Below are positions 2,335 to 26,547 of a DNA stretch of 32,530 bases, in pieces. The stretch comes from Acidimicrobiaceae bacterium (GTDB taxonomy: Bacteria > Actinomycetota > Acidimicrobiia > Acidimicrobiales > Bog-793): assembly GCA_025463965.1 (NCBI GenBank), contig JAODBN010000337.1:1-32530 (forward strand). The letters are read 5' to 3'. The position numbers were made by a program, and so were the translations under genes. Below the pieces are notes generated by a model that had not been told where the DNA came from, did not search any database, and worked only from the letters and a program-made list of their open reading frames with translations. Position 1 is the stretch's first letter, and each line of letters starts with the position of its first letter.

Positions 2335-3180
2335 GTGTCCGTTGAGAGCGAGCTAGCTCTAACGGCCCACGAGGCGGACCTCGACCTTCTGCCGCTATCC
2401 GCCGATGAACGGCGTGATCACATCCTCGAGATCGTGAACGCCCGCGGCCGCGTGCGGGTGCGGGACCTCGCGGAGCTCGTGCGCGTGACCGAGCCCACGA
2501 TCCGCAAGGACATTACTGACCTCGCCTCGCAGCGCCTTCTGCGACGCATCCACGGCGGCGCGCTCGCCATCCGGCCGGCATACGAGCCCAGCGTGACCGC
2601 GCGGACACACACGAATGCGCTCGGCAAGTGCGCCATTGCTCGGGCCTGCCTTGCTCAGGTCAGGGATGGGGACGCAATCTTCATCGACAGCGGCTCCACG
2701 ATGATCGCGCTTGCCGATGCGTTCCGACCTGATCCGGCGCTGGCCAACCCGCCTGCCGCTCCTCCGGCGAACGTCAACGTGCTCACTAACGCCGTGGAAG
2801 TCGCCAGGATCTTGGCGCCGATATCGACAGTCCGTCACACCATGCTCGGAGGCCAGTACCGCGCCGCCGGGGAGTGCCTCGTCGGTCCTCTGGCCATCGA
2901 AGCACTCGAGCGCTTCACGTTGAATATCGCGTTCATCGGGGTCACCGGCTTATCCGATGCTGGTTTCACGGTGGCAGACGTCAGCGAGGCGCAACTCAAA
3001 GCGGCCGCCATGGAGAGAGCCCGCCGGGTGATTGTCCCTATGGACCACACCAAGGTCGGGTCTACCGGCTTCATACGGGTTTGCGAGACGGACCGCATCG
3101 ACACGGTCATCACCGATGAGCCCAACGAATACCTCGAGCAGATGTGCGCCGAGCACGACGTCGAGCTTGTGCTCGCATGA
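2335..3180 (+). CDS. DeoR-family transcriptional regulator
   Basis: The track starts at ATG 2284, but GTG 2335 is preceded by AGGAGG (2323-2328) with a 6-nt spacer and is the better start, giving 281 residues. An N-terminal winged helix-turn-helix (about residues 22-75) reads VRVRDLAELVRVTEPTIRKD and ends in the family's LRRIHGGA signature. The C-terminal DeoRC sensor domain has GDAIFIDSGST, the Gly-rich GGQYRAAGECLVG region and MDHTKVGSTGF followed by VITDEP. DeoR regulators usually repress sugar or polyol catabolism and respond to a phosphorylated intermediate. As first gene of a long co-directional set it is probably the local regulator. No sugar kinase is nearby, so its effector is unclear. 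Confidence 0.9.
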   Translation: MSVESELALTAHEADLDLLPLSADERRDHILEIVNARGRVRVRDLAELVRVTEPTIRKDITDLASQRLLRRIHGGALAIRPAYEPSVTARTHTNALGKCAIARACLAQVRDGDAIFIDSGSTMIALADAFRPDPALANPPAAPPANVNVLTNAVEVARILAPISTVRHTMLGGQYRAAGECLVGPLAIEALERFTLNIAFIGVTGLSDAGFTVADVSEAQLKAAAMERARRVIVPMDHTKVGSTGFIRVCETDRIDTVITDEPNEYLEQMCAEHDVELVLA

Positions 3181-3375
3181 ACGGCCGCTCTGCTCCGGCG
3201 CCCGGTACAGGGTTCTCGGCGGCGGCGAGGGGGCGCCGGGCTCGCTCCCCCCCCCGAACCGGTGGCCCCCACACGACGCCTCATCGGTGCTCTCGACCGC
3301 TCGCTTAGCCAACCAGCTAGCCGTCCAACGACTCAACCAGTTCCAAGCGAAAACAACGACCCTAGGGGGGAAGGT

Positions 3376-4740
3376 ATGAATCGCAATTGCCGGAGAGCCG
3401 TGCCTATCGCGGGCGCGGCTCTTATCTCAACACTTCTGGCCGTTCCAGGGGTGGCCTCAGCGACCTCGTCGCATGCGTCGAGCCAGTCGATAACCATCTG
3501 GACCACGACCGGAGTCAACTACGACTGGCAGAAGACTCTTCTTCCCGCGTTTGAGAAGACGACCGGTATCCACGTGAACTACGACATAATTCCGGAGAGC
3601 TCGCTGTCAGACAAGCTCCAGACGGCAGAGCTCGCTCACAGCACCGCATACTCGATCATCGAGGAGACCCAGGGCCAAACTGCGACTTACAAGGCCAATG
3701 ACGGCGCGATTGCACTGAAGAAGTTCCTCAACAACAGCTCGCTGACACCAGCCTCGTACAATTTCAACGGCATCTCTTCGGGTTCCTACTCAGGCTGCGA
3801 GCTGAAGGGGGTCGTGTACTGCCTGCCGACCTCCTTTGACGCCGGACCCGAGCTGTTCTGGAACAAGGCGCTGTTCAAGGCCGCTGGTCTCACCTCGGCT
3901 CCCGCGAACTGGAATCAGATCGTCGCCGATGCGAAGAAGTTGACCAGTTCCTCGAGCGGGGTCTCCGGCATCTGCATGCGTGGCAGCGAGTCCCAGGCGA
4001 ACAACTACCCGTTCTTTCTGATGTTCCCGTATTTCGCTCCCTACGCCAAGAACTACCAGGGCGAGATCCTCAACCACAGCTGGCAGCCCTTGTTCAATAG
4101 CGCGGGGGCCGCAACCTGGGCGAAGGATTATTCGGCACTGATGCAGGACTACGCCCCCAAGGGTGTGTCCTCGTACGGCTATACCGACTGTGAGCACGCC
4201 TTCGAGACCGGCCAGGTTGCGATGTGGTGGGACGACTCGGCATTCGAGACCGACCTCGCCAACCCCAAGGTGTCGAAGGTGGCCAAGCAGACCGGCTTCG
4301 CCGAGATTCCCTGCCCGAGCTTCAACCAGACGTGCCTCCTGTCGGTTCCATGGGGTATGTACGTCAACCCCAACCTGACGAACGCTCAGCAGGATGCTGC
4401 GTGGAAGTACATGGAGTACGTAACGGCGCCCGCCAACCAGATCACCGCCATGGTGAAGACGGCCAACCCCGGCATTGCGAGCCGAACGGCTTCCATCACC
4501 TACGCGCTTAGCCACAATTCGATCTTCAAGGCGCCAACCGACTACCTCCAAGCGGTGAAGTACAGCCTGAGCCACATCGAAGGGAATGCGATTCCGTCGT
4601 CGCCCGCATTCAGCCCGATGGTGAACGACATCAACGTGATGCTGTCGGACCTGACGACCGGACAAGAGTCGCCGGAATCGGCGCTCAGCACCATTCAGGG
4701 CCAGATCACTGCTATCTCCGCTCAGTACCACCTGAAGTAG
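3376..4740 (+). CDS. ABC transporter substrate-binding protein, family 1 (sugar type)
   Basis: The start is ATG 3376, behind GGGGGGAAGG; the longer ORF-track version is unlikely because the signal peptide begins at MNRNCRRAVPIAGAAL. The protein has 454 residues with a Sec signal ending near GVASA. The mature part opens with ITIWTTTGVNYDWQKTLLPAFEKTTG in the style of CUT1 sugar-binding proteins and continues with the solute-binding fold (WNKALFKAAGL, AMWWDDSAFETDL, SVPWGMYVNPN). It should deliver substrate to the two permeases encoded next. There is no lipobox cysteine, unusual for a Gram-positive type importer. Several Cys pairs (for example CELKGVVYC and CPSFNQTC) suggest disulfides. The ligand is unknown; sugars, polyols or glycerol-phosphate-like compounds are typical of the family. 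Confidence 0.9.
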   Translation: MNRNCRRAVPIAGAALISTLLAVPGVASATSSHASSQSITIWTTTGVNYDWQKTLLPAFEKTTGIHVNYDIIPESSLSDKLQTAELAHSTAYSIIEETQGQTATYKANDGAIALKKFLNNSSLTPASYNFNGISSGSYSGCELKGVVYCLPTSFDAGPELFWNKALFKAAGLTSAPANWNQIVADAKKLTSSSSGVSGICMRGSESQANNYPFFLMFPYFAPYAKNYQGEILNHSWQPLFNSAGAATWAKDYSALMQDYAPKGVSSYGYTDCEHAFETGQVAMWWDDSAFETDLANPKVSKVAKQTGFAEIPCPSFNQTCLLSVPWGMYVNPNLTNAQQDAAWKYMEYVTAPANQITAMVKTANPGIASRTASITYALSHNSIFKAPTDYLQAVKYSLSHIEGNAIPSSPAFSPMVNDINVMLSDLTTGQESPESALSTIQGQITAISAQYHLK

Positions 4741-4777
4741 GCGAGCAGCCCTGGCTTACCAGGTTGCGGGTCCCGAA

Positions 4778-4817
4778 GCCGACACCCGCCCGGAGACTGC
4801 TCCAGGCGGGTGTCGGC
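4778..4817 (+). terminator. Strong stem-loop between binding protein and permease genes
   Basis: GCCGACACCCGCC (4778-4790) pairs perfectly with GGCGGGTGTCGGC (4805-4817), 13 bp. The loop can extend the stem with GGAG/CTCC around ACTG. No T-tract follows. It lies 37 nt after the binding-protein stop. Such hairpins between a binding-protein gene and its permease genes often stabilise the upstream mRNA or partly terminate transcription, so the binding protein is made in excess. Confidence 0.75.
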
Positions 4818-4911
4818 CCGGCCGCACCCGTGCCGCCCGCGACGACGGACATGGTCGATCGTTCGGCGCTCCAGATGCAGTGGTTCACCGTTCCCAGCTG
4901 ATTGGATCGCG

Positions 4912-5889
4912 GTGCAGGTTTCCGAAAGCGACTTAACTCAGCCGACAAGGAGGACGTCACCCCCAGCCAGGACGCGTCCGTCGGCGGGCTTCTGGGCCAG
5001 CGGCCTAGGAGAACTCCGGCGCTGGGGAGACCGTCGGTTCCTCGTGCTCGCCGCTTTTCCCGCCTTCGCGGTCGTGGCGGCAGTCGCGGTGATCCCGATC
5101 CTCCTCGGCATCTGGCTGAGCTTCACGAACTACCAGCCGCTATCGCCGTCGCTTCGATGGGCCGGACTGACCAACTACGACGGCATCGTGAGGGGCCCGA
5201 ACGCTCTCTTCGCCCACACCGCCATTCTCAACACGCTGATCTTTGTAGGCGGCGCGATCGCCGTCGAGACAATCCTGGGAGTGGCAATCGCCGTGATCCT
5301 GGCGCGCAAGTTCCGGGGCGTCCTCTTCTTTCGGGCAATCTTTGTCATCCCCCTCATGGTGAACGGCGTCGCCTCCACCGTCACCTGGCGCTCACTGTTC
5401 AGCACATCGAACGGCTGGATCAACTACTTCCTCGGAGCCGTCGGGCTCGGGCAGCCGAACTGGCTGGGTAACGGGCACCTCGCAATGCCGACCATCATCT
5501 TCATCGACGCTTGGGCGGGCGTGCCGATCGTGGCCATCATCGTGATGGCCGGGATCCTGATGCTGCCGCCCGACCCGATGGAAGCGGCTCGGATTGACGG
5601 GGCGTCCGCAATCGGTGTGTTCCGGCACATCGTGCTCCCCGCCATCCAGCCGGTGCTCGCCTTTGCCGTGATGTTCCGCTTGATCGACCTGTTCCGTCAG
5701 TTTGCTGAGTTTCAGCTCATCACCGGCGGCGGCCCCGGCCTAACGACGACGGTGCTCAACTTCTACGTCTATCAGGAGACCTTCGTAAATGGCGATATCG
5801 GCTTCGGTGCCGCTCTTGCCGTTTTGCTCGTGGTGATGATGGTCATCCCCCTCGCGATCCTCTACCGCTTCACTCGAAGGGGTGTCTGA
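4912..5889 (+). CDS. ABC sugar transporter permease, MalF/UgpA type
   Basis: This is a multi-spanning membrane protein with about six hydrophobic segments. The first is FLVLAAFPAFAVVAAVAVIPILLGIWLSF. The permease loop that binds the ATPase is clear: EAARIDGASAIGVFRHIVLP, the EAA motif of CUT1 inner-membrane subunits. With GTG 4912 it has 325 residues, normal for the family. The tracked GTG 4810 falls inside the stem-loop and adds an Arg-rich, non-membrane stretch, so it was rejected. The ribosome binding site of 4912 is weak and the true start is uncertain. The gene ends with an 8-nt overlap with the partner permease. No ATPase gene is present, so a shared MsmX/MalK-like ATPase elsewhere must energise the importer. 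Confidence 0.88.
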   Translation: MQVSESDLTQPTRRTSPPARTRPSAGFWASGLGELRRWGDRRFLVLAAFPAFAVVAAVAVIPILLGIWLSFTNYQPLSPSLRWAGLTNYDGIVRGPNALFAHTAILNTLIFVGGAIAVETILGVAIAVILARKFRGVLFFRAIFVIPLMVNGVASTVTWRSLFSTSNGWINYFLGAVGLGQPNWLGNGHLAMPTIIFIDAWAGVPIVAIIVMAGILMLPPDPMEAARIDGASAIGVFRHIVLPAIQPVLAFAVMFRLIDLFRQFAEFQLITGGGPGLTTTVLNFYVYQETFVNGDIGFGAALAVLLVVMMVIPLAILYRFTRRGV

Positions 5890-6772
5890 CGTGGCCCACG
5901 CTGCACCGATCGTGATACCTGTCCGACGTCAGCGGCTCAACAGGGCGGCTCGCACGAAGATCATCAACACGTGCTGCATCGTCGTGCTCGTCGTCGGCGC
6001 TGCGATCATTCTGCTCCCCCTGTTCTGGCTCATCGAGACCGCGCTCAAGCCTCCGCTCGAGGCTTACGTGATGCCGCCGAAATTCATTTTCTCGCCCACG
6101 ACCGTCAACTTCAGCACCCTTCTTCAGCAGCAGAGCGACCAATTCGGCCAGGACCTCGTCCACTCGCTCGTTGTGCTCGCGGTAAGCGTGGCGCTGGCCC
6201 TCGTGCTCGGGACTCCAGCGGGCTATGCGCTGTCCCGATCGCGCTTTCGCGGAAGCCGCACGATCTCGGTCGGGCTCATCGCGATCTACATCGCGCCGGC
6301 GCTCGTGTACATCGTCCCGCTGTACGTCATTTACGAGAAGCTTGGATTGACTGGCTCTTATCTTTCCCTGATCCTCTACTACGAGACCTTTGAGATGCCG
6401 TTCGTCACCTTCATGATGCGCGGCTTCTTTAGCGATATACCGAAGGAGCTCGACGATGCAGCTCGCGTGGACGGGTGCAGCCGTTGGCTGGCTTTCCGGA
6501 GAATCTTGCTGCCGCTTGTGCTTCCTGGGCTATCTACCGTGACCGTCCTCATCGCCATTGGGTCGTGGGGCGAGTACTTCGGGGCGCTCATCTTCTCGGG
6601 ACCATCGACCCAGACGGCTCCGGTCGATCTCGCCGAGTACATCGGGCTCAACGCATCGAACTGGGGAGCCCTGGCGGCAGGCTCTGTGCTGTTGATTGTG
6701 CCGGTCCTAATCCTCGTCGTCTTTTTCCAGCGCGGCTATCTGCGCCGGCTCACGTCCGTGTCGGCGGCGTGA
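5882..6772 (+). CDS. ABC sugar transporter permease, MalG/UgpE type
   Basis: The 296-residue membrane protein starts at GTG 5882 inside the end of the preceding permease gene (8-nt overlap), indicating translational coupling. It has the usual second-permease layout: first helix INTCCIVVLVVGAAIILLPLFWLIETALKPP, a periplasmic loop, then the transport core. The EAA-type loop ELDDAARVDGCSRWLAFRRI faces the cytoplasm to dock the ATPase. The C-terminus VFFQRGYLRRLTSVSA follows the family pattern (FQR..v.Glt.GavK). Together with the binding protein and the first permease it forms a CUT1-type importer lacking only the nucleotide-binding subunit. About 120 nt without a gene follow before the ligase locus. 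Confidence 0.9.
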   Translation: MSDVAHAAPIVIPVRRQRLNRAARTKIINTCCIVVLVVGAAIILLPLFWLIETALKPPLEAYVMPPKFIFSPTTVNFSTLLQQQSDQFGQDLVHSLVVLAVSVALALVLGTPAGYALSRSRFRGSRTISVGLIAIYIAPALVYIVPLYVIYEKLGLTGSYLSLILYYETFEMPFVTFMMRGFFSDIPKELDDAARVDGCSRWLAFRRILLPLVLPGLSTVTVLIAIGSWGEYFGALIFSGPSTQTAPVDLAEYIGLNASNWGALAAGSVLLIVPVLILVVFFQRGYLRRLTSVSAA

Positions 6773-6890
6773 TGGCCAGCCACCACCCACGTAGACGATC
6801 CTCCACCAGTGAGCGCGCCAGTCTTGGGCAGCGAGCAGACCGGCGCACGACCTCAGTGGGCCTGCCCTGGCGTCCCCGGGGAGCCTCGCT

Positions 6891-8498
6891 ATGACTACCT
6901 ATCCCGGCGAACTCTCCATTGCCGATGTCATGTCCTTGAGGAGAGAGGACCGCTCATCGCACACGTTCCTTCGGATCGTCAGCAAGGGCGAAGCTCGCGC
7001 TTCGCTGAGCTACGCCGAGGCCGACGTGGCCACGTTGTCCGTCGCCCACGCCCTCCTAGCTCTCGGCCTGTCGGCAGGCGACCGCGTCATGATCGCCACG
7101 CCGAACTGCCTCGAGCAGATCCTTGCCATGTTCGGAACGGCTCGGACCACGCTCGTCAATGTTCCGATCAACGCCGCGAGCGCTCCTGCCGAGATCTCCT
7201 ACCTCGTCGGACTCACCGAGCCTGCGTGTGTCGTGGTTGGTCCCGAGCAGGCCGACGCCTTCGACCGAGCGGAGTTACCCGCTGGTGCGGTGCGGGTTGC
7301 GGTGGTGCTCGGGCCGAATACTGGAGCACATCGCTGGGCGGCGCGGTCGGTGAGCTGGGAAGAGCTCATCGCCAGCGGCAAGCCGACGGCCCTACCCCCA
7401 CCCGCTGCGCGCGACACCTTTCAGCTTTTGCCTACTTCTGGCACCACGAGCCGTCCAAAGGCAGTGATCCACAGCCACACGACTCGGCTCCGCAGCGCGT
7501 TCCGCGCCGTGCTCCACACCCGCATCCGAGACGACGACGTACTCCTCAATACCTTCCCGGCCTTCCACATCAATTGCCTCGACTCAGCCATCTTGCCTGC
7601 GCTCGTCACCGGGGCGACAGCGGTGATCTTCGAGACCTTCAGCGCTTCGTCTTTCTGGCGGGTCGTTCGGGCGGAGCAGGCGACGGTGGTCTCGGTGATC
7701 CCAACTCTCATCCGGGCCGTGGCCGCCCAGCCGGTGAACCCGGAAGAGCGGCAGCATTGCGTGCGACTCATCTCTGGTTCCCTTCGACCCTCGGCGGCCG
7801 AGTTGCAAGCCTTCCTGGAGCGCTTCGCCCTGAGCCGCTATGAGAGCGGCTAGGGCCTCACCGAGGCGGGGAACGCTGTGACGGGCACGAACGCCGAGAT
7901 CGGGGTGCGCCACCCTTCGATGGGCGTGCCGCTCTTTGACAGAACCGTTGAGCTCTTCGACGAGCAGGACCAGCCCGTCCCCGAAGGCGCGACCGGCGAG
8001 CTCGTGATCCGATGCGACCCGCCGGGCGCAGTCATGGACGGCTATTGGAACAACCCGGAAGCGACCCGTGCCGCTCTGCGGGACGGGTGGCTGCGCACCG
8101 GTGATCTCGCCCGAAGGGACCGGGCCGGCGCTTACTACTTCGTCGGACGTAGCAAGGACGTGATCAAACGCTCCGGAGAGAACGTTGGGGCCGAAGAGGT
8201 CGAGGCCGTGCTGTCCGACCACCCTGCCGTGAAGGAGGTCGCCGTCATCGGCGTCCCAGATGAATACCGCGACGAGGCGGTGATGGCGTTCGTCGTCATC
8301 GTCGAGGAAGGTGACGCATTGACTCTCCAGCAGCTACGAGCTTTCTGCACCGGACGCTTGGCTGACTTCAAAGTCCCGACTGCGCTGAGGGTGGTGGACG
8401 AACTGCCCCGGGGTCTGTTGGGCAAGACCGACAAGCGTGCGCTCCGTTCTCTGGCCGCCGCCGATCACCCGCTCGCTCGCGGAACGGGGGATAACTGA
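6891..8498 (+). pseudogene. Acyl-CoA ligase (AMP-dependent synthetase) interrupted by one in-frame TAG
   Basis: Two tracked ORFs (6891-7853 and 7878-8498) lie in the same frame and together make one full-length enzyme of about 535 residues, divided only by TAG at 7851-7853 (codon 321). Motifs are otherwise intact: the ATP-binding loop TSGTTSRPKAV (from residue 182), WLRTGDLARRD, VGRSKDVIKRSGENVGAEEVE, and the C-terminal lysine region GLLGKTDKRALR. The stop replaces the aromatic residue of the conserved YG-TE motif (SRYESG*GLTEAG), where a Tyr codon TAC or TAT is one base from TAG. The family activates carboxylates as AMP and then CoA thioesters. The gene may be a fresh pseudogene, a sequencing error, or read through. 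Its placement points to substrate activation for the downstream CoA-dependent genes. Confidence 0.85.
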
Positions 8499-8499
8499 C

Positions 8500-9669
8500 A
8501 TGGGGAGACCGGTGAGCAGCATCGTCGGCGTTGCCGAATCGGCCCTTGGGACAGTGTCCAACGAGACACCACTTCGAATGATGGCCTCGGCGACCCTCGA
8601 CGCCCTCGAGGAGGCGGGGCTCAAGCTCGCCGACGTCGACGCCATCTTCACCGCCGGCCTGCCGACGTGGTCACCGGCGTTGGAGGTCGCTGACTACCTC
8701 GGCCTTCAGCCTCGCCACGTCAACAGCTCCGATGTAGGTGGAAGCTCGTTCGAGTTCCACGTCGCCGCCGCCGATGCGGCCATCGCTGCGGGACTGTGCA
8801 GCGTGGCGGTTATCACCTATGCGGCCACCCCGCGCCAGGACCGGGCGGTACCGCCGTTGATCCGGGAGGAGCCGCCGTACACCGTGCGCAACGCCTTCGA
8901 GCGTCCGACCGGGCTCTTTGGCCCCGACATCGGCCCCTACGCGCTCGCGGCCGACCGCTACGTGCATGAGTTTGGCGTCTCGGCAACGGAACTGGCAGAG
9001 GTCGCAGTCGCGGCACGAAAGTGGGCCAATTTGAATCCCAAAGCTTTCCGTCACGGCGAGCCGCTCAGCATCGATGACGTGCTGAACTCCCCGATGGTCA
9101 CCGATCCTCTCCATACGCGTGATTGTTGCCTGATCACCGATGGTGGTGGCGCTGTCGTGATGACGAGTACTGACCGTGCCGCGAAACTGCGCAAGCAACC
9201 GATTCAGGTGGCTGGTTACGGCGAGGCGATCAGCCACGGGAGCATCTCGCTCTGCCGCGATCTCGTGCTCACAGGGGCCCGGGTCTCATCCGCTGCGGCA
9301 TACGAGATGGCAGGGCTCGGACCCGCCGATATGGATGTCGTGCAGATCTACGACTCCTTCACGATCACCGTGCTGCTTTCCCTGGAGAACCTGGGCTTCT
9401 GTGGCCCGGGTGAAGCAGGCGCGTTCGTCCAGGGCGGCCGTATCCGTCCCGGGGGTGCGTTCCCACTCAACACCTCCGGAGGCGGGCTGTCCTACTGCCA
9501 CCCCGGCCGGTTCGGCATCTTCCTGCTCATCGAAGCCGTTCGCCAGCTGCGCGCCGAGTGCGGCGAGCGGCAAGTTCCGGGCTGCCGTACCGCCCTCGCG
9601 CACGGTACGGGAGGGAACTTCTCAAGTGCCGCGACGGTGCTGCTCACGAATGAGGCGACCGGTGCCTGA
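8500..9669 (+). CDS. Thiolase-like protein (SCP-x/Ltp type), probable acyl-CoA aldolase
   Basis: ATG 8500 follows GGGGGATAA and lies 1 nt after the ligase stop; the earlier in-frame start at 8437 would overlap the ligase. The 389 residues have the thiolase-superfamily layout of lipid-transfer-type thiolases: MGRPVSSIVGVAES at the start, YDSFTITVLLSLENLGF (Tyr284), NTSGGGLSYCHPGRFG (His334) and a C-terminal HGTGGNFSSAA (His368). The N-terminal nucleophile position, normally Cys, reads DVGGSSFEF (residues 78-86) with no Cys. This family often pairs with DUF35 proteins, and the steroid side-chain enzyme Ltp2 is such a pair acting as a retro-aldolase. The overlapping DUF35 gene downstream supports the same here. 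Retro-aldol cleavage is inference; a thiolase-like CoA-binding fold is well supported. Confidence 0.85.
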   Translation: MGRPVSSIVGVAESALGTVSNETPLRMMASATLDALEEAGLKLADVDAIFTAGLPTWSPALEVADYLGLQPRHVNSSDVGGSSFEFHVAAADAAIAAGLCSVAVITYAATPRQDRAVPPLIREEPPYTVRNAFERPTGLFGPDIGPYALAADRYVHEFGVSATELAEVAVAARKWANLNPKAFRHGEPLSIDDVLNSPMVTDPLHTRDCCLITDGGGAVVMTSTDRAAKLRKQPIQVAGYGEAISHGSISLCRDLVLTGARVSSAAAYEMAGLGPADMDVVQIYDSFTITVLLSLENLGFCGPGEAGAFVQGGRIRPGGAFPLNTSGGGLSYCHPGRFGIFLLIEAVRQLRAECGERQVPGCRTALAHGTGGNFSSAATVLLTNEATGA

Positions 9670-10072
9670 TCCGCTCCCGCAAGACCCCGAGCTGACGACC
9701 TACTTTGAAGGGCTCCGCCGTGGGGAGCTGCTGCTCCAGCGCTGCGACGATTGTGCGCGTGCCCAGTTCCCACCGCGGATTCACTGCACCTTCTGCGGGA
9801 GTCGAGCCCACGTCTGGGAACCCTCTGCCGGCGATGGAACGGTCTACGCCAAGACCGTCAACCGCCGAGCACCCGAATCGGCGTTCGAGCACCTGGTGCC
9901 CTACGTCGTGGCCTTTGTGGACCTCGACGACGGAGTTCGGGTCCTCGCTCGGGCGGACGCCCCACCGGAGCGCGTCCAAACTGGGATGCGGGTCCAGGTC
10001 GTCGCCGACCCAAACCCGCCGGTCGGGGACGGCTTGATCTTCCGGATCCGTGATGGGAGCGAGACGCAATGA
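9662..10072 (+). CDS. DUF35 / OB-fold Zn-ribbon protein, partner of the thiolase-like enzyme
   Basis: GTG 9662 overlaps the thiolase-like gene by 8 nt; the longer tracked ORF is a shadow of that gene. The 136-residue protein has an N-terminal helix (ELTTYFEGLRRGELLLQRC), a rubredoxin-like zinc ribbon with Cys28-x2-Cys31 and Cys42-x2-Cys45, then an OB-fold (GTVYAKTVNRRAPE, PYVVAFVDLDDGVRVLARA). This matches the DUF35_N plus OB-fold_aCoA architecture. Such proteins form tight complexes with thiolase-like enzymes and bind the acyl-CoA substrate. The stop overlaps the next ATG by 4 nt (ATGA), so it belongs to the same translational chain. Confidence 0.92.
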   Translation: MPDPLPQDPELTTYFEGLRRGELLLQRCDDCARAQFPPRIHCTFCGSRAHVWEPSAGDGTVYAKTVNRRAPESAFEHLVPYVVAFVDLDDGVRVLARADAPPERVQTGMRVQVVADPNPPVGDGLIFRIRDGSETQ

Positions 10073-11052
10073 CCATTTCCAACGACACGCTGCTCGATAT
10101 CTACGAACGCTTGTGCCTCTGCCGGGAATTCGAGTCGGCGCTGATCTCCTACGGCACCCGGGACCGAGCCTCGCTCGGACACCCGTACCTCGGGCAAGAG
10201 GCAGTGGCGGCAGGCGCCTGTGCGGCCCTCGGTCCGGAGGATCGCCTGCTCAGCACCCATCGCTCCCACGGCCACGCCGTCGCCAAGGGCTGCGACCTCA
10301 TCCGCTTAGCCCTCGAGCTCTACGGCAGCGTCGAGGGTACGTGCCTGGGCCGTGCCGGAGAGATGTACATGTGCGAGCCCGACGTGGGCTATCTCGGCGG
10401 GACCCAGATCGTCGCCGGAAACCTCCCCATGGCCGCTGGTGTGGCACTGGCAGGCCAGCTGGCGGGCGGGGACCAGATCGCGATTGGTTTCGTCGGCGAT
10501 GGTGGCGTAAATCAGGGGGTCTTCTACGAGACCTTGAACCTCGCTTCGGTCTGGCACCTTCCCCTTGTCGTTGTGGTCGAGGACAACGGCTACGCCCAGT
10601 CGACCCCAGCCGCCTACGTCACGGCGGGATCGATCGTCGAGCGCGTCGCCGCCTTCGGGATCAATGCTCGCCGCGTCGATGGACAGGCGGCGACCGAGGT
10701 CTATGAAGCAGTAACCGAGGCACGCCAGCGGGCCATGGCCGGAGATGGCCCGACCGTCCTCCATGCCGAGACGTATCGATATGAGGGGCACTACTACGGA
10801 GATCGTCACCGGCGCTACCGAGACCAGACGGAGCTCGAGCACTGGCTTTCCCGAGATCCGCTCAGCGTCCACCGCGGCGTGCTGCAAACAGCCGGAATCG
10901 ACGAGGAGCGAATCAGCTCGATCGAACGGGAGGCGAAGGCGCTCTGCGTGGAGGCGTTCGAGGGCGCGAGCAGTGGTCGACGCGTCACCGCGGATGACCT
11001 CACAGGCTGGCTCAACCCGGTAGGGGCCAGTTCGCCGGGAGCACAGCGCTGA
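10069..11052 (+). CDS. Thiamine-pyrophosphate dehydrogenase E1, alpha subunit
   Basis: The 327-residue protein belongs to the 2-oxoacid/acetoin dehydrogenase E1-alpha family. The TPP-Mg motif is intact: GDGGVNQGVFYETLNLA starting at residue 143. The N-terminus (YERLCLCREFESAL, YLGQEAVAAGACAAL, THRSHGHAVAKG) and the GRAGEMYM stretch are typical, and AETYRYEGHYYGD matches the family's C-terminal catalytic loop. It forms an alpha2beta2 heterotetramer with the next gene product. The enzyme decarboxylates a 2-oxo acid, or cleaves an acetoin-like compound, and passes the acyl group to a lipoyl domain. It overlaps the DUF35 gene by 4 nt and the beta gene by 1 nt. The substrate cannot be read from the sequence; AcoA-like is as likely as branched-chain or pyruvate type. 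Confidence 0.92.
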   Translation: MTISNDTLLDIYERLCLCREFESALISYGTRDRASLGHPYLGQEAVAAGACAALGPEDRLLSTHRSHGHAVAKGCDLIRLALELYGSVEGTCLGRAGEMYMCEPDVGYLGGTQIVAGNLPMAAGVALAGQLAGGDQIAIGFVGDGGVNQGVFYETLNLASVWHLPLVVVVEDNGYAQSTPAAYVTAGSIVERVAAFGINARRVDGQAATEVYEAVTEARQRAMAGDGPTVLHAETYRYEGHYYGDRHRRYRDQTELEHWLSRDPLSVHRGVLQTAGIDEERISSIEREAKALCVEAFEGASSGRRVTADDLTGWLNPVGASSPGAQR

Positions 11053-12062
11053 TGAGGCCGCTGAAATATTGGAAGGCGTGCAACGAGGCACTGCGCCTCG
11101 AGATGCAGAGAGACCCTCGGGTGCTCGTGCTTGGAGAGGACGTCGCCGGGGGTGGCATCGGCCCCGACGGTGAAGTACGCGAGGCATGGGGTGGTCCGTT
11201 CGGCTTCACCCGAGGGCTGATCGAGGAGTTCGGGCCGTCGCGAGTTCGCGACACGCCTATCTCCGAGTCGGGGTTTACCGGCCTGGCCGCCGGACTCGCC
11301 GCGAGCGGCTACCGGCCATGGGTCGATGTGATGTTCACCGAGCTGCTGCCGCTCGCGATGGATCAGCTCGTCAACCGCGTCTCACGGACCCGCTTCCTCA
11401 GTGCGGGCCAGCTCACAATGCCCCTTACGATCAAGACTTTCGGCGAGTGCTACTCACCTCTCGCCCACTACCCCGGCCTTATCTGTGTCGCCCCATCGGA
11501 CGCTTACTCAGCGAAGGGGCTGACGGCTGCGGCGATCCGAGCCGATGACCCGGTGGTGATATTCGACAGCCTGCGACTGCTTCGCGACGAGTGCGAGGTG
11601 CCCGAGGAGGCGTACACCCTCGATCTTGGCAAGGCCCGTATCGTGCGTCACGGCTCCGATATCACCCTCGTCGGCATCGGGCCGTCAACAAGCATGTGCC
11701 TGGCTGCCGCCGACGCGCTGCAAGAGGACGGAGCTGACGCGGAAGTGGTCGACCTCCTCACTCTCGCCCCGTGGGACGTCGAAGGGGTCACCGAGTCGGT
11801 CCGACGGACGCGGCGCCTCGTTGTTGTCGACTTCGACCACCCGAACTGCGGTCTCGGGGCGACGATTTGCGCTTCAGTCTCGGAGTTGGCCTGGGGCGAT
11901 CTTGCCAGCGCGCCGCGCAGACTCCAGGCCGCAGCGGTGCCTGCGATGGGCACGGACGGGAATCCGGATATCACAACGCTCTGCATGCCGACGCTCGATG
12001 AAGTCCTCGGGGCGGCACGGTCCTCGCTACTGGCTGGCGTGACCGAGCGACAGGGGGCGTGA
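11052..12062 (+). CDS. Thiamine-pyrophosphate dehydrogenase E1, beta subunit
   Basis: The start ATG overlaps the alpha-subunit stop (TGATG). The 336 residues follow the transketolase-like pyrimidine-binding domain plus C-terminal domain of E1-beta. VLVLGEDVAGGG carries the conserved Glu that activates TPP. RVRDTPISESGFTGLAAGLAASGYRPWVD, the VNRVSRTRF segment and VVDLLTLAPWD with VVVDFDHPNCGLGATI complete the pattern. It pairs with the alpha subunit. Standard complexes also need an E2 acyltransferase and E3 dihydrolipoyl dehydrogenase, and neither is encoded nearby. Only a free lipoyl-domain protein follows, about 1.8 kb downstream. Confidence 0.93.
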   Translation: MRPLKYWKACNEALRLEMQRDPRVLVLGEDVAGGGIGPDGEVREAWGGPFGFTRGLIEEFGPSRVRDTPISESGFTGLAAGLAASGYRPWVDVMFTELLPLAMDQLVNRVSRTRFLSAGQLTMPLTIKTFGECYSPLAHYPGLICVAPSDAYSAKGLTAAAIRADDPVVIFDSLRLLRDECEVPEEAYTLDLGKARIVRHGSDITLVGIGPSTSMCLAAADALQEDGADAEVVDLLTLAPWDVEGVTESVRRTRRLVVVDFDHPNCGLGATICASVSELAWGDLASAPRRLQAAAVPAMGTDGNPDITTLCMPTLDEVLGAARSSLLAGVTERQGA

Positions 12063-12892
12063 TGCCGACCGCCAAGGACTACGTCGGGACTCTTTTCGGC
12101 GTTGAGGGAAAGTGCGTCGTCGTGACCGGAGCAGGTGACGGGTTCGGGCGGGAGATTGCGGGCGCCCTGGTACGAGCCGGGGCCAAAGTCGTGTTGGCCG
12201 ACCTCAATACCGCTGCTCTCGACAATGCCGTTACGGAGCTCAGCGCGCTGTCCTCTGATGTCCTCGCCCAGAAGGCCAACGTCACCGTGGAGGCGGATGT
12301 CGAGGCGCTCGCTCGGGCCGCAGTCGAGCGCTTCGGAACCGTCGACGCGCTTATCAACAACGCGGGCGCGATGCTCGGCACCGCTGCGCCGGAGAAGTAC
12401 GGGCTCGAGCTCTGGGAGTCGACGATCGCCGTCAACCTGACGTCGGCCTTCCTCTGCTCGAAGGCGATGTACGGGCCCATGGCCGCCAACGCGTCGGGCG
12501 GCAGCATCGTCAATCTCAGCTCGGTCGGCAGCATAAGCGCGCTCGGCGGCGGGATCTTGGCCTACGACGTTGCCAAGAGCGGAGTGAACCAGCTCACCCG
12601 TGAGCTGGCGGTCGAGTGGGCCCCGGCCGGAGTGCGCGTCAACGCCATCGCTCCGTGCCAGTTCCGGACTCGAGGTTGGGCAGCCGCTATGGAGGACCCG
12701 ACGAAGGAGGCAACGGTTGCCCGGGTCAAGGCGGGGATACCGATCGGCCGCCTCGGCGAACCCCACGAGATCGTCGGTGCGGCCCTTTTCCTCTGCTCAA
12801 ATGCCGCTTCGATGATCACCGGCTCGTTTCTCGCCGTTGACGGTGGGAACTTGGCGGCCAATCCGACCCTCGGCGGCGTACTCCACAGCTGA
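12062..12892 (+). CDS. Short-chain dehydrogenase/reductase (SDR)
   Basis: The classical SDR has 276 residues from ATG 12062, overlapping the E1-beta stop by one base; GTG 12059 is the tracked alternative but sits too close to AGGGGG. The cofactor motif TGAGDGFG lies near residue 24, followed by NNAG, NLSSVGS with the catalytic Ser, and Tyr168-x3-Lys172 (AYDVAKSG). The acidic residue at the end of beta-strand 2 (LADLN) favours NAD over NADP. The C-terminus MITGSFLAVDGGN is typical. It should oxidise or reduce a hydroxy/keto group in the local pathway, for example producing the 2-oxo or diketone substrate of the neighbouring E1 enzyme. Confidence 0.92.
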   Translation: MPTAKDYVGTLFGVEGKCVVVTGAGDGFGREIAGALVRAGAKVVLADLNTAALDNAVTELSALSSDVLAQKANVTVEADVEALARAAVERFGTVDALINNAGAMLGTAAPEKYGLELWESTIAVNLTSAFLCSKAMYGPMAANASGGSIVNLSSVGSISALGGGILAYDVAKSGVNQLTRELAVEWAPAGVRVNAIAPCQFRTRGWAAAMEDPTKEATVARVKAGIPIGRLGEPHEIVGAALFLCSNAASMITGSFLAVDGGNLAANPTLGGVLHS

Positions 12893-12917
12893 GCCGAGCT
12901 TACTGAAAGGCACTAGC

Positions 12918-13877
12918 ATGGCAATGCAACTTCCTCGCTACGAGGAGCTGCCGATCGATCCGAAGGCCCCGGCGGGCTCCTCATGGGGCGTATTCGGCTC
13001 CGATGATCAGGTCGGGAGCATCAACCTACTGACCGAGAGTCGCGTGAAGGCAGCGTGTGGACTAGTGCACAACGGACGCGTGTTCTCGTTGAATTGGGAT
13101 CTCGAGCTGCCAGATCCTCCGCTCGCCGGTCGCGGCGCGATGAGGCACACGATCCACCGCGGGCCTATCGGGACCGACGACCACTACGACAACTTCTTCA
13201 CGCAACGCTCCAGCCAGTGGGATGCCCTGTCGCACGTCCAGCACCCGCTCTACGGCTTCTACAACGGTCGGACGATGGACGAAATCACCGGCGCCAAAGG
13301 GAGCAAGAACGGCATGGACAACTGGGCTCGCCGGGGAATCGCCGGGCGGTTCACGCTGCTCGACATCGATCGATTCCGGGCCGAGGACGGGCGTCCCCTT
13401 GACCAGAAGCGCGCCGAGGCGCTCACTGTCGAGGATCTGGAGGGCGCCGTGCGTCGGCAGGGCTCGCCGATCGAGGAAGGCGACGTCCTGCTTCTTCGCT
13501 TCGGCTGGATGTCGTGGTACGAACAGGCTGACCGTTCCGACCGAGAGTGGGCGGCGCTGCCCCCGGAGGAGATCGGCACGCCCGGACTCGCACACGAGGA
13601 AGACGTGGCCGCGTGGCTCTGGGACCAGCACGTGGCCGCCGTCGCCACGGACAGCCCCGCCCTCGAGGTCTTGCCGGTCGATCAAACCTCGGCCGAGAGC
13701 TTTCTCCACATCAGGCTGATCCCGATGCTCGGGATAGCAATCGGTGAGATGTTCGATCTCGAGGCGCTGGCAGACGACTGTGCCTCGGACCACCGCTACC
13801 ACGGCCTTTTCACCGCCGCGCCCTTGAACAAGGTGGGAGGGAGCGGTTCGCCGGCGAACGCGCTCGCAATCAAGTGA
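12918..13877 (+). CDS. Cyclase-family metal hydrolase (PF04199, kynurenine formamidase-like)
   Basis: ATG 12918 follows GAAAGG with 7-nt spacing. The 319-residue protein belongs to the cyclase family that includes kynurenine formamidase, isatin hydrolase and polyketide ring-closing proteins. The opening WGVFGSDDQVGSINLL and IEEGDVLLLRFGWMSWYEQ are family hallmarks. The metal-binding segment reads SQWDALSHVQH (residues 99-109). Compared with the usual HxGTHxDxPxH, Asp102 and His106 are kept, but the position before them holds Gln100 instead of His, as in a divergent branch of the family. The likely reaction is hydrolytic opening of a lactam, lactone or cyclic diketone, or its reverse. It sits between an SDR and the lipoyl-domain gene in the operon. 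Confidence 0.88.
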   Translation: MAMQLPRYEELPIDPKAPAGSSWGVFGSDDQVGSINLLTESRVKAACGLVHNGRVFSLNWDLELPDPPLAGRGAMRHTIHRGPIGTDDHYDNFFTQRSSQWDALSHVQHPLYGFYNGRTMDEITGAKGSKNGMDNWARRGIAGRFTLLDIDRFRAEDGRPLDQKRAEALTVEDLEGAVRRQGSPIEEGDVLLLRFGWMSWYEQADRSDREWAALPPEEIGTPGLAHEEDVAAWLWDQHVAAVATDSPALEVLPVDQTSAESFLHIRLIPMLGIAIGEMFDLEALADDCASDHRYHGLFTAAPLNKVGGSGSPANALAIK

Positions 13878-13908
13878 AGCGTCACACGCGGCGCCAAGAG
13901 GAGGCGAG

Positions 13909-14154
13909 ATGATCCACGAGATACGACTGCCCGCCGTCGGCGCATCGGCGGTCGGCGAGGTGTCTGAGTGGTACAAGGCGCCAGAGCAATCAGTCACAGC
14001 CGGTGAGCCGATCGTCGCGGTCGACATCGACAAGGTGCTCATCGACGTCCCCGCCCCAGCCGACGGCGTCCTCACCGTGGTCGTTCCCGAAGGCCAGACA
14101 GTCGAGACCGGTGGTGTTCTCGGATGGATCACCGCCCGCAGCGACGAAGGGTGA
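13909..14154 (+). CDS. Stand-alone lipoyl (biotinyl)-domain carrier protein
   Basis: ATG 13909 has a strong AAGAGGAGG four bases upstream. The 81 residues are a single lipoyl domain: two symmetrical beta halves with the modification hairpin VDIDKVLIDVPAPADG, attachment Lys42 in DKV, and a terminal EGQTVETGGVLGWI. The DKV context and the neighbouring E1 genes argue for lipoate rather than biotin (which uses MKM/MKL). In normal E2 proteins this domain is followed by a subunit-binding domain and an acyltransferase core; here the protein ends directly after the domain and the next gene overlaps. It is therefore a free swinging-arm carrier, like glycine-cleavage H protein in concept, probably accepting the acyl group from the local E1. 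Confidence 0.88.
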   Translation: MIHEIRLPAVGASAVGEVSEWYKAPEQSVTAGEPIVAVDIDKVLIDVPAPADGVLTVVVPEGQTVETGGVLGWITARSDEG

Positions 14155-14159
14155 TCGGC

Positions 14160-14978
14160 GTGGCTGCCGGCGAAGGGTCCGATGCGGCCGTGACGGCTCG
14201 TCGCCTGGAAGGCGTTCGCGCGCTCGTCACCGGTGCAGCACAAGGGATCGGACTCGCCATCGCCACCCGGTTCGCCGACGAGGGCGCGGTCGTCGGAATG
14301 CTCGATCGCTCCGCGACCGATCTTGAGTCGGCCGCCAACGCAATCCTCCAACGGGGCGGCGCCGTGGTGAGCCTTCTGCTCGACGTCCGTGACCGGGCGG
14401 CCGTGAAGGGTGCGGTGGACGACTTCGTCGCCGGACAGGGCGGTGTCGACGCGCTGGTCAACTGCGCCGGGACGATCACCCTGCGACCCTTTCTCGCCGT
14501 CGACGAGGAAGCCTGGGATGACCTAATGGACGTCAACTGCAAGGGAACTCTCTGGTGCTGCCAGGCAGTCGCAGAGGCGATGATCGGGCAAGGTACCCGC
14601 GGATCCATCGTCAACGTCGCCTCGGTCTCGGGCCGACGAGGAGAGATCGGCAACTTGGCGTACTGCGCGACCAAGGCCGCCGTTATCAGCATGACCGAGT
14701 CGATGGCCCTCGAGCTGGCGCCCTATGGGATCCGCGTCAACGCAATCGCTCCGGGGATCGTCGCCACGCCGATGTGGGACCGGATCGACGAGCAGGCCGC
14801 AACACTTCTGAACATCCCTGTCGGCGAGGCCAGACGCCGCGCTGCTTCCACCATCCCGCTCGCACGGGTGGGCGAGCCCGGCGAGATCGCTGGCACGGCT
14901 GTGTTTCTGACATCGGCCGACGCCTGCTATGTCACGCGGCAATGCATCAATGTCGACGGGGGAAGCTGGCCCGGATAG
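14160..14978 (+). CDS. Short-chain dehydrogenase/reductase (second SDR)
   Basis: GTG 14160 lies 9 nt after GAAGG; GTG 14151, overlapping the lipoyl gene stop, is an alternative, while the tracked 14124 start is too far upstream. The 272-residue classical SDR shows TGAAQGIG, NCAG, NVASVSGRRGE with the catalytic Ser, and Tyr168-x3-Lys172 (AYCATKAA). The end of strand 2 is MLDRS, with Asp pointing to NAD. An INVDGGSWPG tail closes the Rossmann fold. It differs clearly from the first SDR of the operon, so the pathway probably has two separate redox steps on alcohols or ketones. About 80 nt follow before the transporter gene. Confidence 0.92.
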   Translation: MAAGEGSDAAVTARRLEGVRALVTGAAQGIGLAIATRFADEGAVVGMLDRSATDLESAANAILQRGGAVVSLLLDVRDRAAVKGAVDDFVAGQGGVDALVNCAGTITLRPFLAVDEEAWDDLMDVNCKGTLWCCQAVAEAMIGQGTRGSIVNVASVSGRRGEIGNLAYCATKAAVISMTESMALELAPYGIRVNAIAPGIVATPMWDRIDEQAATLLNIPVGEARRRAASTIPLARVGEPGEIAGTAVFLTSADACYVTRQCINVDGGSWPG

Positions 14979-15061
14979 GGCCCTATCGTGACGGGGCCAG
15001 CACCCAGGTCAAGCCCTATGGAGCGATCGATTCGCGACAAACAAAAGGAACGGTATCGGAC

Positions 15062-16483
15062 TTGTTTGTGAGCTCGGAGCGCAGGCGTGCCGCGCCCCGG
15101 CTCGTGTTCCTCATCGTCTCGATCGCGCTCTTCATGTCGGCGGTCGACGCCACGATCGTCGCGACCGCGCTGCCGAACTTGCGCCAGGCCCTGCACGCCT
15201 CGATCGCTTGGGTGAGCTGGTCCATCACCGCCTACTCCCTCGGATTGGCGGTGGCCATGCCGATCGCGGGCACCCTGGGCGACTTGATCGGCAGGCGCCG
15301 CGTCTTCATCGTCTCCGGCATGGTGTTCACCGCAAGTTCGCTCCTCTGCGGCTTATCGGTCGACGTCCCGATGCTGGTCGTTTTCCGCTTCCTACAGGCT
15401 CTCGGCGGGGGTGCTTTCCTGCCCTCCGCCAGTGGCATCGTCCTCGAGCAGTTCGGTGACGGCGGGACGAGGGCCGTCGGAATGCTCTCGGGGATCTTCC
15501 CCCTCGGGGCGCTCGCGGGACCGGTAATCGGAGGCATTCTCGTCACCGAGCTGTCCTGGCGAAGCGTCTTCCTCGTGAACGTCCCGATCGGGTTGGCCTT
15601 CACCGCTCTCGCCGTTCGTTACCTCCCCGGTGCGGTGAGGAGGCCGGGATCCGTGGACCTCGTGGCAGTCGGCCTGCTCGCGGCGGCGCTCATCTGCGCC
15701 CTCCTGGCGGTGACAGACCTTGCTGATCCGAACAACGAGATCTGGACCCCCTCGGTGCTGGCGCCGCTGGTGATGGCTGCGGGAGGTACGTACGCGCTCG
15801 TTGCGAGATCTCGTGCGCGTCCAGGCGGCCTGATCCCACTCCCGCTGTTCCGATCACGGCCATTCCTCGCCATGATCGTGTTCAACCTCGTCTGGGGCGG
15901 CATCGTTCTCGGCTTCGGTGCCCTCATACCTCTTTACGCTGAAGTCCGCTTCGGGCTGCGGCCGCTCTCGGCAGGGACGCTCCTCACTTTCCGAGCCGTG
16001 GGCGAAGGAGCCTTGGCAGTGGTGGTCGCGTCCCTCCTGCGCCGAACCGGGTTCCGAGCCCCGATGATCGCCGGCTGCCTGCTGTTGGCCCTCGGAATGG
16101 GAATGATGGTCGTCGGTATCCGTCGCGGTGAGGCATACGGCTGGCTGGCGGCAGCGGCAGCAGTCACCGGTCTCGGGGTCGGCGCCTCGGCGCCTTCGTC
16201 CAACAACGCGAGCCTGCAGGTGGCGCCCGACGCCGTCGGCACGATCGCCGGGCTGCGCGGCATGTTCTCCCAGTTCGGAGGCATTTTTGCCGTCGCCCTC
16301 ACCGCAGCGCTCGCCGAGCGGGGCGGTGGCGTCAGCCAAGGGCTGGCGCGCTCGTTCATCGCCATCGCCATCGCCATCGTCCTCGTCGCACCTCTCAGCT
16401 TGGCGCTGCCAGCCCACGCGAAGGCGCCACCGGTCACCCCGTCATCAGCGCTCGAGCAACCCGAGGTAGGAGGAAACCCTTGA
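15062..16483 (+). CDS. MFS transporter, DHA2 (14-TM drug/proton antiporter-like) family
   Basis: The tracked frame opens at 14555 inside the SDR; membrane sequence begins only at about 15090. TTG 15062 has AAGGAA 11 nt upstream, and GTG 15068 is equally possible. About 473 residues with many hydrophobic helices. The first helix carries MSAVDATIVATALPNLRQAL, the motif typical of EmrB/QacA-type DHA2 transporters. GDLIGRRRVFI is the loop 2-3 MFS signature, and GPVIGGILV is the antiporter motif C. Members export drugs or metabolites by proton exchange; some import aromatic acids. In this operon it may import the substrate or export an intermediate. The 3' end overlaps the next gene. Confidence 0.9.
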   Translation: MFVSSERRRAAPRLVFLIVSIALFMSAVDATIVATALPNLRQALHASIAWVSWSITAYSLGLAVAMPIAGTLGDLIGRRRVFIVSGMVFTASSLLCGLSVDVPMLVVFRFLQALGGGAFLPSASGIVLEQFGDGGTRAVGMLSGIFPLGALAGPVIGGILVTELSWRSVFLVNVPIGLAFTALAVRYLPGAVRRPGSVDLVAVGLLAAALICALLAVTDLADPNNEIWTPSVLAPLVMAAGGTYALVARSRARPGGLIPLPLFRSRPFLAMIVFNLVWGGIVLGFGALIPLYAEVRFGLRPLSAGTLLTFRAVGEGALAVVVASLLRRTGFRAPMIAGCLLLALGMGMMVVGIRRGEAYGWLAAAAAVTGLGVGASAPSSNNASLQVAPDAVGTIAGLRGMFSQFGGIFAVALTAALAERGGGVSQGLARSFIAIAIAIVLVAPLSLALPAHAKAPPVTPSSALEQPEVGGNP

Positions 16484-17391
16484 TCACCCAGGTGAGTCGT
16501 CAGCTGGGCCACGAGATCGTGCTGAACGTCCATCTCGTGATCGGTAGTGAGATTTCCGTGCTCGTAGACAGCGGGATCGCGGACATGGGAGGAGAGATCC
16601 TCTCGATGATCGACGCGACGTCCGCCGGTCGCTCGGCGGTGCGCTTCATCGTCAATACCCACAGCCACCACGATCACATGGGGGCGAACGGCCTACTGAA
16701 AGCGGAGCTCGGCTGCATCGTCGCGGCACCTCCGGCCTTGGCACACTGGCACCGCGACTTCGACCGGCACCTCGCCGAGTTCACCGACCCGGCCGACGCC
16801 GGAGTCGTCATACCGCCAGTCGAGCTCGCCGAGCTTCGCTCGACCCTCGACCGTGAGCACTCGGTCGAGCTCCATCTCGGCGACGGCTCGGAGATCGACC
16901 TCGGGGGCGACGTGCTGCTTCGCTGCATTGAGCTGCCGGGGCATGTCCGAGGCGAGGTCGGCTTCCTCGAGGCGAGCTCCGGGACGCTGATCATCGGGGA
17001 TGTGCTCATCGGGCTTGACTGGCCGTTCTTCCACGGATACGTGGATACGGCGCTGATGCGAGGGTCTCTCGAGCGACTTGACCAGCACCTGCGTTCCGGC
17101 GCCGTTTTGGCCGTCCGGCCCGCCCATTACCCGGTGATGACTGCGAAGGAGGCCACGGCGGTGGTGCACCGGATCATGAGCACCGTCGAGGAGATCGCTG
17201 CCGAGACGGAAATCGCCGCGCGGTCGCTTGGGTCGTTCTCCGCCCGCCAGATGCGCGACCGGCTGTGCGAGCGCTTCGGCAAGGCGAAGGACTTCCGCGC
17301 TCTCGCCGTGGCGAACGCCCATCTGCTCGATCTAGTCGGCCAGGGCCAGCTCCGGGCGCTCGCTGGCGGCCGGTACGAACTCTCAACCTGA
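16480..17391 (+). CDS. MBL-fold metallo-hydrolase
   Basis: TTG 16480 overlaps the transporter stop by 4 nt and is preceded by GGTAGGAGG with a good spacer. The 303-residue protein has the metallo-beta-lactamase signature THSHHDHMG (His61, His63, Asp65, His66), a later GHVRGEVGF where the third histidine sits, IIGDVLIG for the bridging Asp and PAHYPV for the last His. These fit a di-metal centre. The helical C-terminal part (about residues 215-303) is typical of glyoxalase-II/thioesterase or lactonase-like branches. In this cluster it could hydrolyse a CoA thioester, lipoyl thioester or lactone. It is the last gene of the long plus-strand run; only a weak hairpin follows. Confidence 0.9.
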   Translation: MITQVSRQLGHEIVLNVHLVIGSEISVLVDSGIADMGGEILSMIDATSAGRSAVRFIVNTHSHHDHMGANGLLKAELGCIVAAPPALAHWHRDFDRHLAEFTDPADAGVVIPPVELAELRSTLDREHSVELHLGDGSEIDLGGDVLLRCIELPGHVRGEVGFLEASSGTLIIGDVLIGLDWPFFHGYVDTALMRGSLERLDQHLRSGAVLAVRPAHYPVMTAKEATAVVHRIMSTVEEIAAETEIAARSLGSFSARQMRDRLCERFGKAKDFRALAVANAHLLDLVGQGQLRALAGGRYELST

Positions 17392-22790: not shown

Positions 22791-22820
22791 GACGGTCGTC
22801 GCTACTCTTTCACGACCGTC
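22791..22820 (-). terminator. Stem-loop spanning the putA stop codon
   Basis: GACGGTCGT (22791-22799) and ACGACCGTC (22812-22820) are exact inverted copies with a 12-nt loop that contains the putA stop codon. The position between two convergent genes fits a bidirectional terminator, but there is no T-run on either side. Confidence 0.35.
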
Positions 22821-26308: not shown

Positions 26309-26547
26309 CTGTGTTCTCTCCCGGTACCGACCGACCGCTCCCGGCATAGTTCTGCTGGTAGGCACACCCCGCATTTGCGCCGGGTTGCATCAAGCATCTC
26401 CCGCGGAGCGGAAGGTCCAAGGCCCAAGGGAGAAACGCGTCGCTGGTAGGCTCGGTGCGTGCAACAGCCCGTATTTCTCGTGGTCTCGCCACTGATCGCG
26501 CCTCGGACTACGTCCAGCGCCGTGCCCCGTTGAGCGACGCTGGCCGC

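Follow-up and report, generated by a model that had tools for sequence, protein, structure and literature searches.

Does a run of genes in which parts of several catabolic routes stand side by side encode one dedicated pathway, and for what kind of compound? This question is raised by contig C410 of an Acidimicrobiaceae bacterium (a draft assembly with 438 contigs totaling 3.54 Mb and a completeness of 77%; C-numbers denote contigs of this genome), the entire 32,530 bases of which were analyzed and are referred to as the window. It carries genes for a coenzyme A (CoA) ligase, a thiolase-like/DUF35 pair, the E1 alpha and E1 beta subunits of a thiamine pyrophosphate (TPP)-dependent dehydrogenase, a lone lipoyl protein, a PF04199 hydrolase (cyclase) and two short-chain dehydrogenases/reductases (SDRs). 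The combination is real and unusual, yet it is a mosaic of known kinds. Its best explanation, a tentative one as a whole, is a lineage-specific operon that serves to break down a compound of the sugar, polyol or sugar-acid type, imported and processed via a lactone, the operon having been built from two modules that are known apart from each other in other genomes. In the sequence at hand, two of its steps are predicted to be impaired or altered, CoA ligation by a stop codon and lipoyl acylation by the loss of a histidine from E1 beta.

The initial annotation had put forward a candidate undescribed catabolic pathway. A conserved, dedicated new pathway was not upheld; the full set of genes was found not to be kept together elsewhere, and it is two sub-modules that recur. 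Searches were conducted with E1 alpha (397 genomes of the phylum, and the best 80 of 555 contigs in a GTDB scan), E1 beta (298 genomes of the order), the thiolase-like protein (296 genomes of the class, 35 of the family), the cyclase (118 relatives, 397 genomes of the phylum) and the lipoyl protein (395 genomes of the class). The full combination was absent from the best 80 of the 555 GTDB contigs and from the 20-kb regions around homologs of E1, the thiolase and the cyclase, and at no locus among those examined did E1 occur together with either the thiolase/DUF35 pair or the cyclase. The best identities were 54% for the thiolase, 57-58% for the cyclase and approximately 46% for both E1 alpha and E1 beta, while the best plasmid-borne orthologs reached 44% for E1 alpha (a Sphingobium plasmid) and 42% for the cyclase. 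In 34 genomes of the same family, no orthologous operon was kept; thiolase matches occurred in three of them only, without an E1 context. As none of the other sampled genomes yielded the complete set, it does not represent a conserved pathway, and conservation of the whole operon was rejected at all loci examined. The open-access literature yielded nothing relevant on the full gene set. One of the two modules is known from Rhodococcus, where genes for a ligase, a cyclase, a thiolase and a DUF35 protein are contiguous on the pDK3 plasmids (L100/L277) and are followed by those for an F420 LLM enzyme and an indolepyruvate ferredoxin oxidoreductase family protein.

Open reading frames (ORFs) and domain profiles delimit fifteen co-directional genes in the window, from a DeoR regulator to a metallo-beta-lactamase (MBL)-fold hydrolase (2335-17391, + strand):

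2335..3180, +, DeoR-family regulator (PF08220 and PF00455), upstream of the enzymes and probably controlling the run
3376..4740, +, sugar-type (SBP_bac_1) ATP-binding cassette (ABC) substrate-binding protein (PF01547)
4900..5889, +, ABC permease 1 (PF00528)
5882..6772, +, ABC permease 2 (PF00528)
6891..8498, +, acyl-CoA ligase (AMP-binding; PF00501/PF13193, split over two halves) with an in-frame TAG at 7851-7853
8500..9669, +, thiolase-like/SCP2 acyl-CoA enzyme (PF22691; NCBIfam PRK06158 above cut-off)
9662..10072, +, DUF35/ChsH2-like OB-fold partner with a C4 zinc ribbon (PF12172 and PF01796)
10069..11052, +, E1 alpha, the alpha subunit of a TPP-dependent dehydrogenase, very divergent (PF00676)
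11052..12062, +, E1 beta (PF02779/PF02780), an active-site loop of approximately 12 residues being absent near residue 131-133
12059..12892, +, SDR 1 (PF13561; TGxxxGxG and YxxxK intact)
12918..13877, +, PF04199 metal-dependent hydrolase (cyclase) of the ester/lactone hydrolase type (QxxxQxDxxxH motif; match to PDB 5ibz)
13909..14154, +, stand-alone lipoyl protein of 81 residues (PF00364; DKV lipoylation motif)
14151..14978, +, SDR 2 (nearest NCBIfam model L-iditol 2-dehydrogenase, below cut-off)
15062..16483, +, major facilitator superfamily (MFS) transporter (PF07690)
16480..17391, +, MBL-fold hydrolase (PF00753)

The families, shared strand and tight packing described initially were thus confirmed, as was the direction of the ten genes counted at the time, although the run is longer than those ten. 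Within its eleven genes from the ligase to the MBL-fold hydrolase, neighbors overlap by 1-8 nucleotides (nt) at six of the ten junctions; the others are gaps of 1 nt (ligase/thiolase), 25 nt (SDR 1/cyclase), 31 nt (cyclase/lipoyl) and approximately 83 nt (SDR 2/MFS). Codon-position GC content is coding-like across all genes of the run. The window has no Rfam matches or tRNAs, and scans of it for promoters and terminators gave no excess over chance. A profile search of the window for an E2 core gave no match, and neither an acyl-CoA dehydrogenase nor a hydratase is encoded within the run, which bears out the view that this is a catabolic operon of neither the plain beta-oxidation nor the plain acetoin type. 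None of the run's genes belongs to lipoamide dehydrogenase (E3), but this is weak evidence because just 9 of the 39 control clusters had a linked E3, and in other organisms its gene commonly lies elsewhere.

The other module, E1 alpha/beta with a lone lipoyl protein and usually with SDRs nearby, was found at approximately 17 loci in Actinomycetota, sphingomonads and Neisseria. Its holders comprise contigs C3 and C26, two genomes of the phylum (G157 and G308), genomes of the same order, Sphingobium, Sphingomonas, Acidimicrobiaceae and Neisseria. The window's lipoyl protein, initially termed an orphan carrier, does stand alone, but it is not unique, for the two further lone lipoyl genes of this genome also lie beside E1 alpha/beta. 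Its DKV lysine, at residue 41 and invariant in the alignment, is that of a lipoylatable domain. On C3 (L102, 4636-9551) and C26 (L103, 4986-9899), the genes encode an SDR, an MR_MLE protein, a CaiB-like CoA transferase, E1 beta, E1 alpha and the lone lipoyl protein, followed by a LacI-type regulator; sugar-isomerase-like genes are also present, these and the MR_MLE and CoA-transferase genes having been recognized from the translations. DNA identity between the two clusters is 85-87%, reflecting either a recent duplication or co-binned strains. The loci of G157 and G308 hold two SDRs, an amidohydrolase and an MBL protein, with MR_MLE in G157, whereas at L258, L259 and L260 (same order, family f56) a PhyH dioxygenase, an amidohydrolase, an SDR and a lone lipoyl protein precede a fused E1 alpha/beta; this PhyH-type arrangement is kept in several genomes of the order and constitutes a compact version of the module. 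At L114, an E1/lipoyl/SDR/amidohydrolase/MR_MLE cluster is flanked by an identical 335-residue ORF (173-1180 and 10780-11787) and is possibly a composite mobile element.

An E2-core hidden Markov model matched 39 of 39 control clusters but none of 15 lone-lipoyl loci. A lone lipoyl protein does not always signify the lack of E2, since in Mesorhizobium norvegicum (L209, 9929-12331) E1 alpha, E1 beta and the lipoyl domain are fused into 800 residues with a small E3-binding-domain protein encoded separately, and at L263 an E2 core is encoded separately. An SDR gene lies within 8 kb at 14 of 17 lone-lipoyl loci vs. 18 of 41 E2-type loci (p = 0.009), and an amidohydrolase gene at 6 of 17 vs. 0 of 41 (p = 0.0003), both values being only indicative as the loci cannot be treated as independent and themselves supplied some of the queries. 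In the E1 alpha tree, sequences of the lone-lipoyl type fall into more than one clade, requiring 9 changes, at least 4 of them forced; the long branch of the window's own sequence (2.66 changes per column vs. a median of 0.25) makes its position uncertain. Nothing relevant on stand-alone lipoyl proteins clustered with E1 was encountered in the open-access literature, and the recurrent module is a better lead than the operon of the window.

The E1 proteins of the window belong to the expected families (PF00676, PF02779 and PF02780), and the TPP-binding motif (GDG...N) is present. The AlphaFold model of E1 beta is closest to the E1 beta subunits of pyruvate dehydrogenase (PDH) and branched-chain 2-oxoacid dehydrogenase (BCKDH), with matches to PDB 1ols and 1olx, and the catalytic glutamate (E72) is retained. 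Between IKTFG and ECYSPLAHYPG, however, approximately 12 residues (36 nt) have been lost in frame, and with them the invariant histidine of the [QTS]HS motif; this residue is present in 117 of 117 homologs from many phyla, the gap being found solely in the window. The fold is predicted to be intact, with a mean predicted local distance difference test (pLDDT) score of 90.7 and values of 87-93 flanking the deletion. The missing residue is H128 beta of the Geobacillus PDH E1, and its equivalent in human BCKDH, H146 beta', is reportedly described as essential in reductive acylation in the study of 1ols and 1olx. With PDH E1, replacements H128Q and H128N left 3.8% and 0.7%, respectively, of complex activity, and H128 beta was proposed to be the proton donor to lipoate (PMC2663715). 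As this histidine is missing, the window's E1 may bind TPP yet would be expected to acylate a lipoyl protein only poorly, even though one is encoded 1.8 kb downstream. Both subunit families behind the TPP-dependent cleavage that had been assigned to this pair are present, but lipoyl acylation by this E1 is doubtful.

A second lesion concerns the ligase, which constitutes a single 536-codon frame that the TAG divides into portions of 320 and approximately 206 residues. The stop falls within the conserved YxSGxGxTE region of ANL ligases (here YESG-stop-GLTEAG), leaving the frame broken across the core motifs; it is one base off what is presumably the Tyr codon expected from the family's YGxTE motif. 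The CoA ligation module noted initially is therefore represented by its families, but because of the stop codon, ligation by the product as encoded is doubtful. Together with the altered E1 beta, this leaves three readings, namely altered chemistry, recent decay and assembly error, which sequence alone does not separate. Of these, decay is somewhat unlikely: selection would have been lost after the operon was assembled, with the stop and the loop deletion as recent inactivating events. The occurrence of two separate lesions, each in a conserved catalytic region, the lack of an orthologous operon across same-family genomes and the very long E1 alpha branch are consistent with this, but the remaining genes show no damage to reading frame, active-site motifs or codon bias, and the E1 beta deletion is in frame with its predicted fold kept. 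An artefact of sequencing or assembly affecting the TAG, the 36-nt loss or both, such that the operon is intact in the organism, is unlikely. The draft and fragmented state of this metagenome assembly and the single-base difference from the expected Tyr codon speak for it, whereas short-read errors do not usually remove 12 residues cleanly and in frame, and the other matches from the same genome in these searches were free of internal stops.

With respect to the catabolic operon preferred here, its thiolase-like protein has as nearest solved structures 4u4e, Ltp2 (6ok1) and BbsB (7pxp). It lacks a nucleophilic Cys, VGGSS being aligned at that site, and possesses YDSF at 284, with the tyrosine of the YDxF motif kept, and a SYCHPG motif; its DUF35 partner carries a C4 zinc ribbon (CDDC/CTFC). 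The YDxF tyrosine serves as the base in Ltp2 and Sal, with Tyr344 and Cys304, respectively, as the catalytic acid (PMC12329534). Retro-aldol cleavage by the predicted pair is plausible.

The cyclase points to the substrate. Its QRSSQWDALSH sequence at 96 fits the modified PF04199 motif QxxxQxDxxxH, which is found in the esterase MGS0169 (PDB 5IBZ) and in trans-dienelactone hydrolase (PMC5341072), and it matches 5ibz over nearly its full length (E = 8e-36), suggesting a metal-dependent ester or lactone hydrolase. The two nearest cyclases (57-58% identity) adjoin genes for L-fucose isomerase, an FGGY kinase and ribose-type ABC proteins. Given the hydrolase motif and these closest relatives in L-fucose-isomerase/FGGY-kinase/sugar-ABC operons, the best guess for the substrate is a sugar-derived lactone, and the earlier suggestion of a sugar-acid, polyol or cyclic substrate gains support from both. 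Permeases 1 and 2 are 57% and 58% identical, respectively, to paralogs on C227 whose genes directly follow those for E2 and E1 alpha, near genes for a DapA-type aldolase, a D-2-hydroxyacid dehydrogenase and an E3-like protein; this importer type is therefore tied to E1/E2 enzymes, and E2 and E3 are on offer in trans. E2 cores are encoded on C385, C366 and C227 of this genome, as are Pyr_redox_dim proteins, including the E3-like one of C227. The motifs of both SDRs are intact.

In the order of steps presumed here, the ABC importer would bring the compound into the cell under DeoR control, the two SDRs would oxidize hydroxyls and the PF04199 hydrolase would open an ester or lactone ring. E1 alpha/beta would then use TPP to split a C-C bond in a 2-oxo or acyloin intermediate, with the acyl group passing to the stand-alone lipoyl protein acting in trans like GcvH, E2 and E3 being supplied from elsewhere in the genome. 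The thiolase-like/DUF35 pair would cleave a CoA thioester in a retro-aldol- or retro-Claisen-type reaction. The genes, their motifs, the recurring modules and both lesions are observations, whereas the class of substrate, the sequence of reactions and the supply of E2/E3 in trans are inferred. Several observations weigh against this scheme. The steps may not form one pathway, since no relative has the whole set; the ligase is interrupted; and E1 beta is without the histidine that PDH needs for lipoate acetylation. In the thiolase, a Ser occupies the position of the Cys required by Sal and of the corresponding His of Ltp2, while a His aligns with Tyr344 of Ltp2, so that neither known catalytic acid is present and the chemistry of this enzyme is unproven. 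Furthermore, other such cyclases reside in terpenoid- or aromatic-type clusters, with P450, flavodoxin and LLM genes or with epoxide hydrolase and P450 genes.

These latter neighborhoods, together with the gene order at L100/L277, favor alicyclic or terpenoid-type catabolism, in which the ligase, thiolase, DUF35 protein and cyclase would process a ring compound as its CoA thioester and E1 would take the place of the 2-oxoacid:ferredoxin-type enzyme of the Rhodococcus plasmids. This is quite unlikely, as the window encodes no monooxygenases, the cyclases nearest by identity lie in sugar operons, and the importer and regulator are of the sugar type. Less likely still is a combined reading in which the lone-lipoyl E1/SDR module forms a widespread, undescribed lipoate-dependent catabolic system, its dedicated lipoyl protein serving in trans as GcvH does when sugar acids or acyloins are cleaved, and in which the window's E1, stripped of its acylation histidine, has turned to non-oxidative C-C cleavage. 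A plain acetoin or diol (aco) operon, with the SDRs as diol dehydrogenases and E1 alpha/beta with the lipoyl protein as acetoin dehydrogenase, is very improbable and was rejected, for although SDR 2 scores with acetoin reductase/meso-butanediol dehydrogenase models and the lipoyl domain is closest to an acetoin E2 model, no NCBIfam cut-off was reached, the gene set has no E2 core and, as weaker evidence, no E3, and the cyclase, thiolase, DUF35 protein and CoA ligase would be left unexplained.

Beyond the run, a secreted family 43-type glycoside hydrolase-like protein with a carbohydrate-binding end, recognized from its translation only, is cut by the contig end (2-1279, - strand). On the same strand, a 1190-residue PutA-type proline/pyrroline-5-carboxylate dehydrogenase-like protein (22802-26374) is encoded beside a GntR/FCD regulator, and adjacent to the PutA-like gene is a dipeptide-type ABC transporter with an AstE/AspA-like peptidase (27220-32093).

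For annotation, the operon warrants a warning; as a whole it is not kept as a unit in other genomes, and the functions assigned to its ligase and E1 may not be those of the encoded proteins. The broader interest lies in the lone-lipoyl E1/SDR module, which raises the testable question of whether a lipoyl protein serves catabolic E1 enzymes in trans, and the window's variant offers a natural test of E1 function without the lipoate-acylating histidine. Five lipoate-dependent complexes have been named as characterized (PMC6067878), to which such a module without a linked E2 would add.

Several parts of the operon have counterparts in known systems. Like the steroid side-chain aldolases Ltp2-ChsH2 and Sal-Shy and the benzoylsuccinyl-CoA thiolase BbsAB, the window pairs a thiolase fold without the nucleophilic Cys, and with the YDxF tyrosine, with an adjoining DUF35/ChsH2-type C4-zinc-ribbon partner. 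It differs from this group in having YDSF rather than YDHF or YDCY, in carrying His in place of the acid Tyr of Ltp2, and in the lack of a hydratase or acyl-CoA dehydrogenase close by. Four families are shared with the ligase-cyclase-thiolase-OB-fold cluster that is contiguous on pDK3 of Rhodococcus DK17/DK180, but identities are only 36% (cyclase), 32% (thiolase) and 30% (ligase), and the plasmid has a 2-oxoacid:ferredoxin-type enzyme where the window has E1/lipoyl. The cyclase shares its modified motif with MGS0169/5IBZ and trans-dienelactone hydrolase, but differs in having its nearest relatives in sugar operons. The E1 alpha TPP motif, the E1 beta fold with Glu72 and the lipoyl DKV lysine are those of 2-oxoacid and acetoin dehydrogenase complexes, whereas the lipoyl domain is a separate protein of 81 residues, no gene of the operon belongs to an E2 core or E3, and E1 beta is without the H128 beta loop. 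Finally, the lone lipoyl protein resembles the LbpA lipoate-binding proteins of sulfur oxidation and GcvH as a single lipoyl-domain protein of the kind that acts in trans, but it is found beside E1 alpha/beta and SDRs in catabolic loci rather than with sHdr or glycine cleavage genes.

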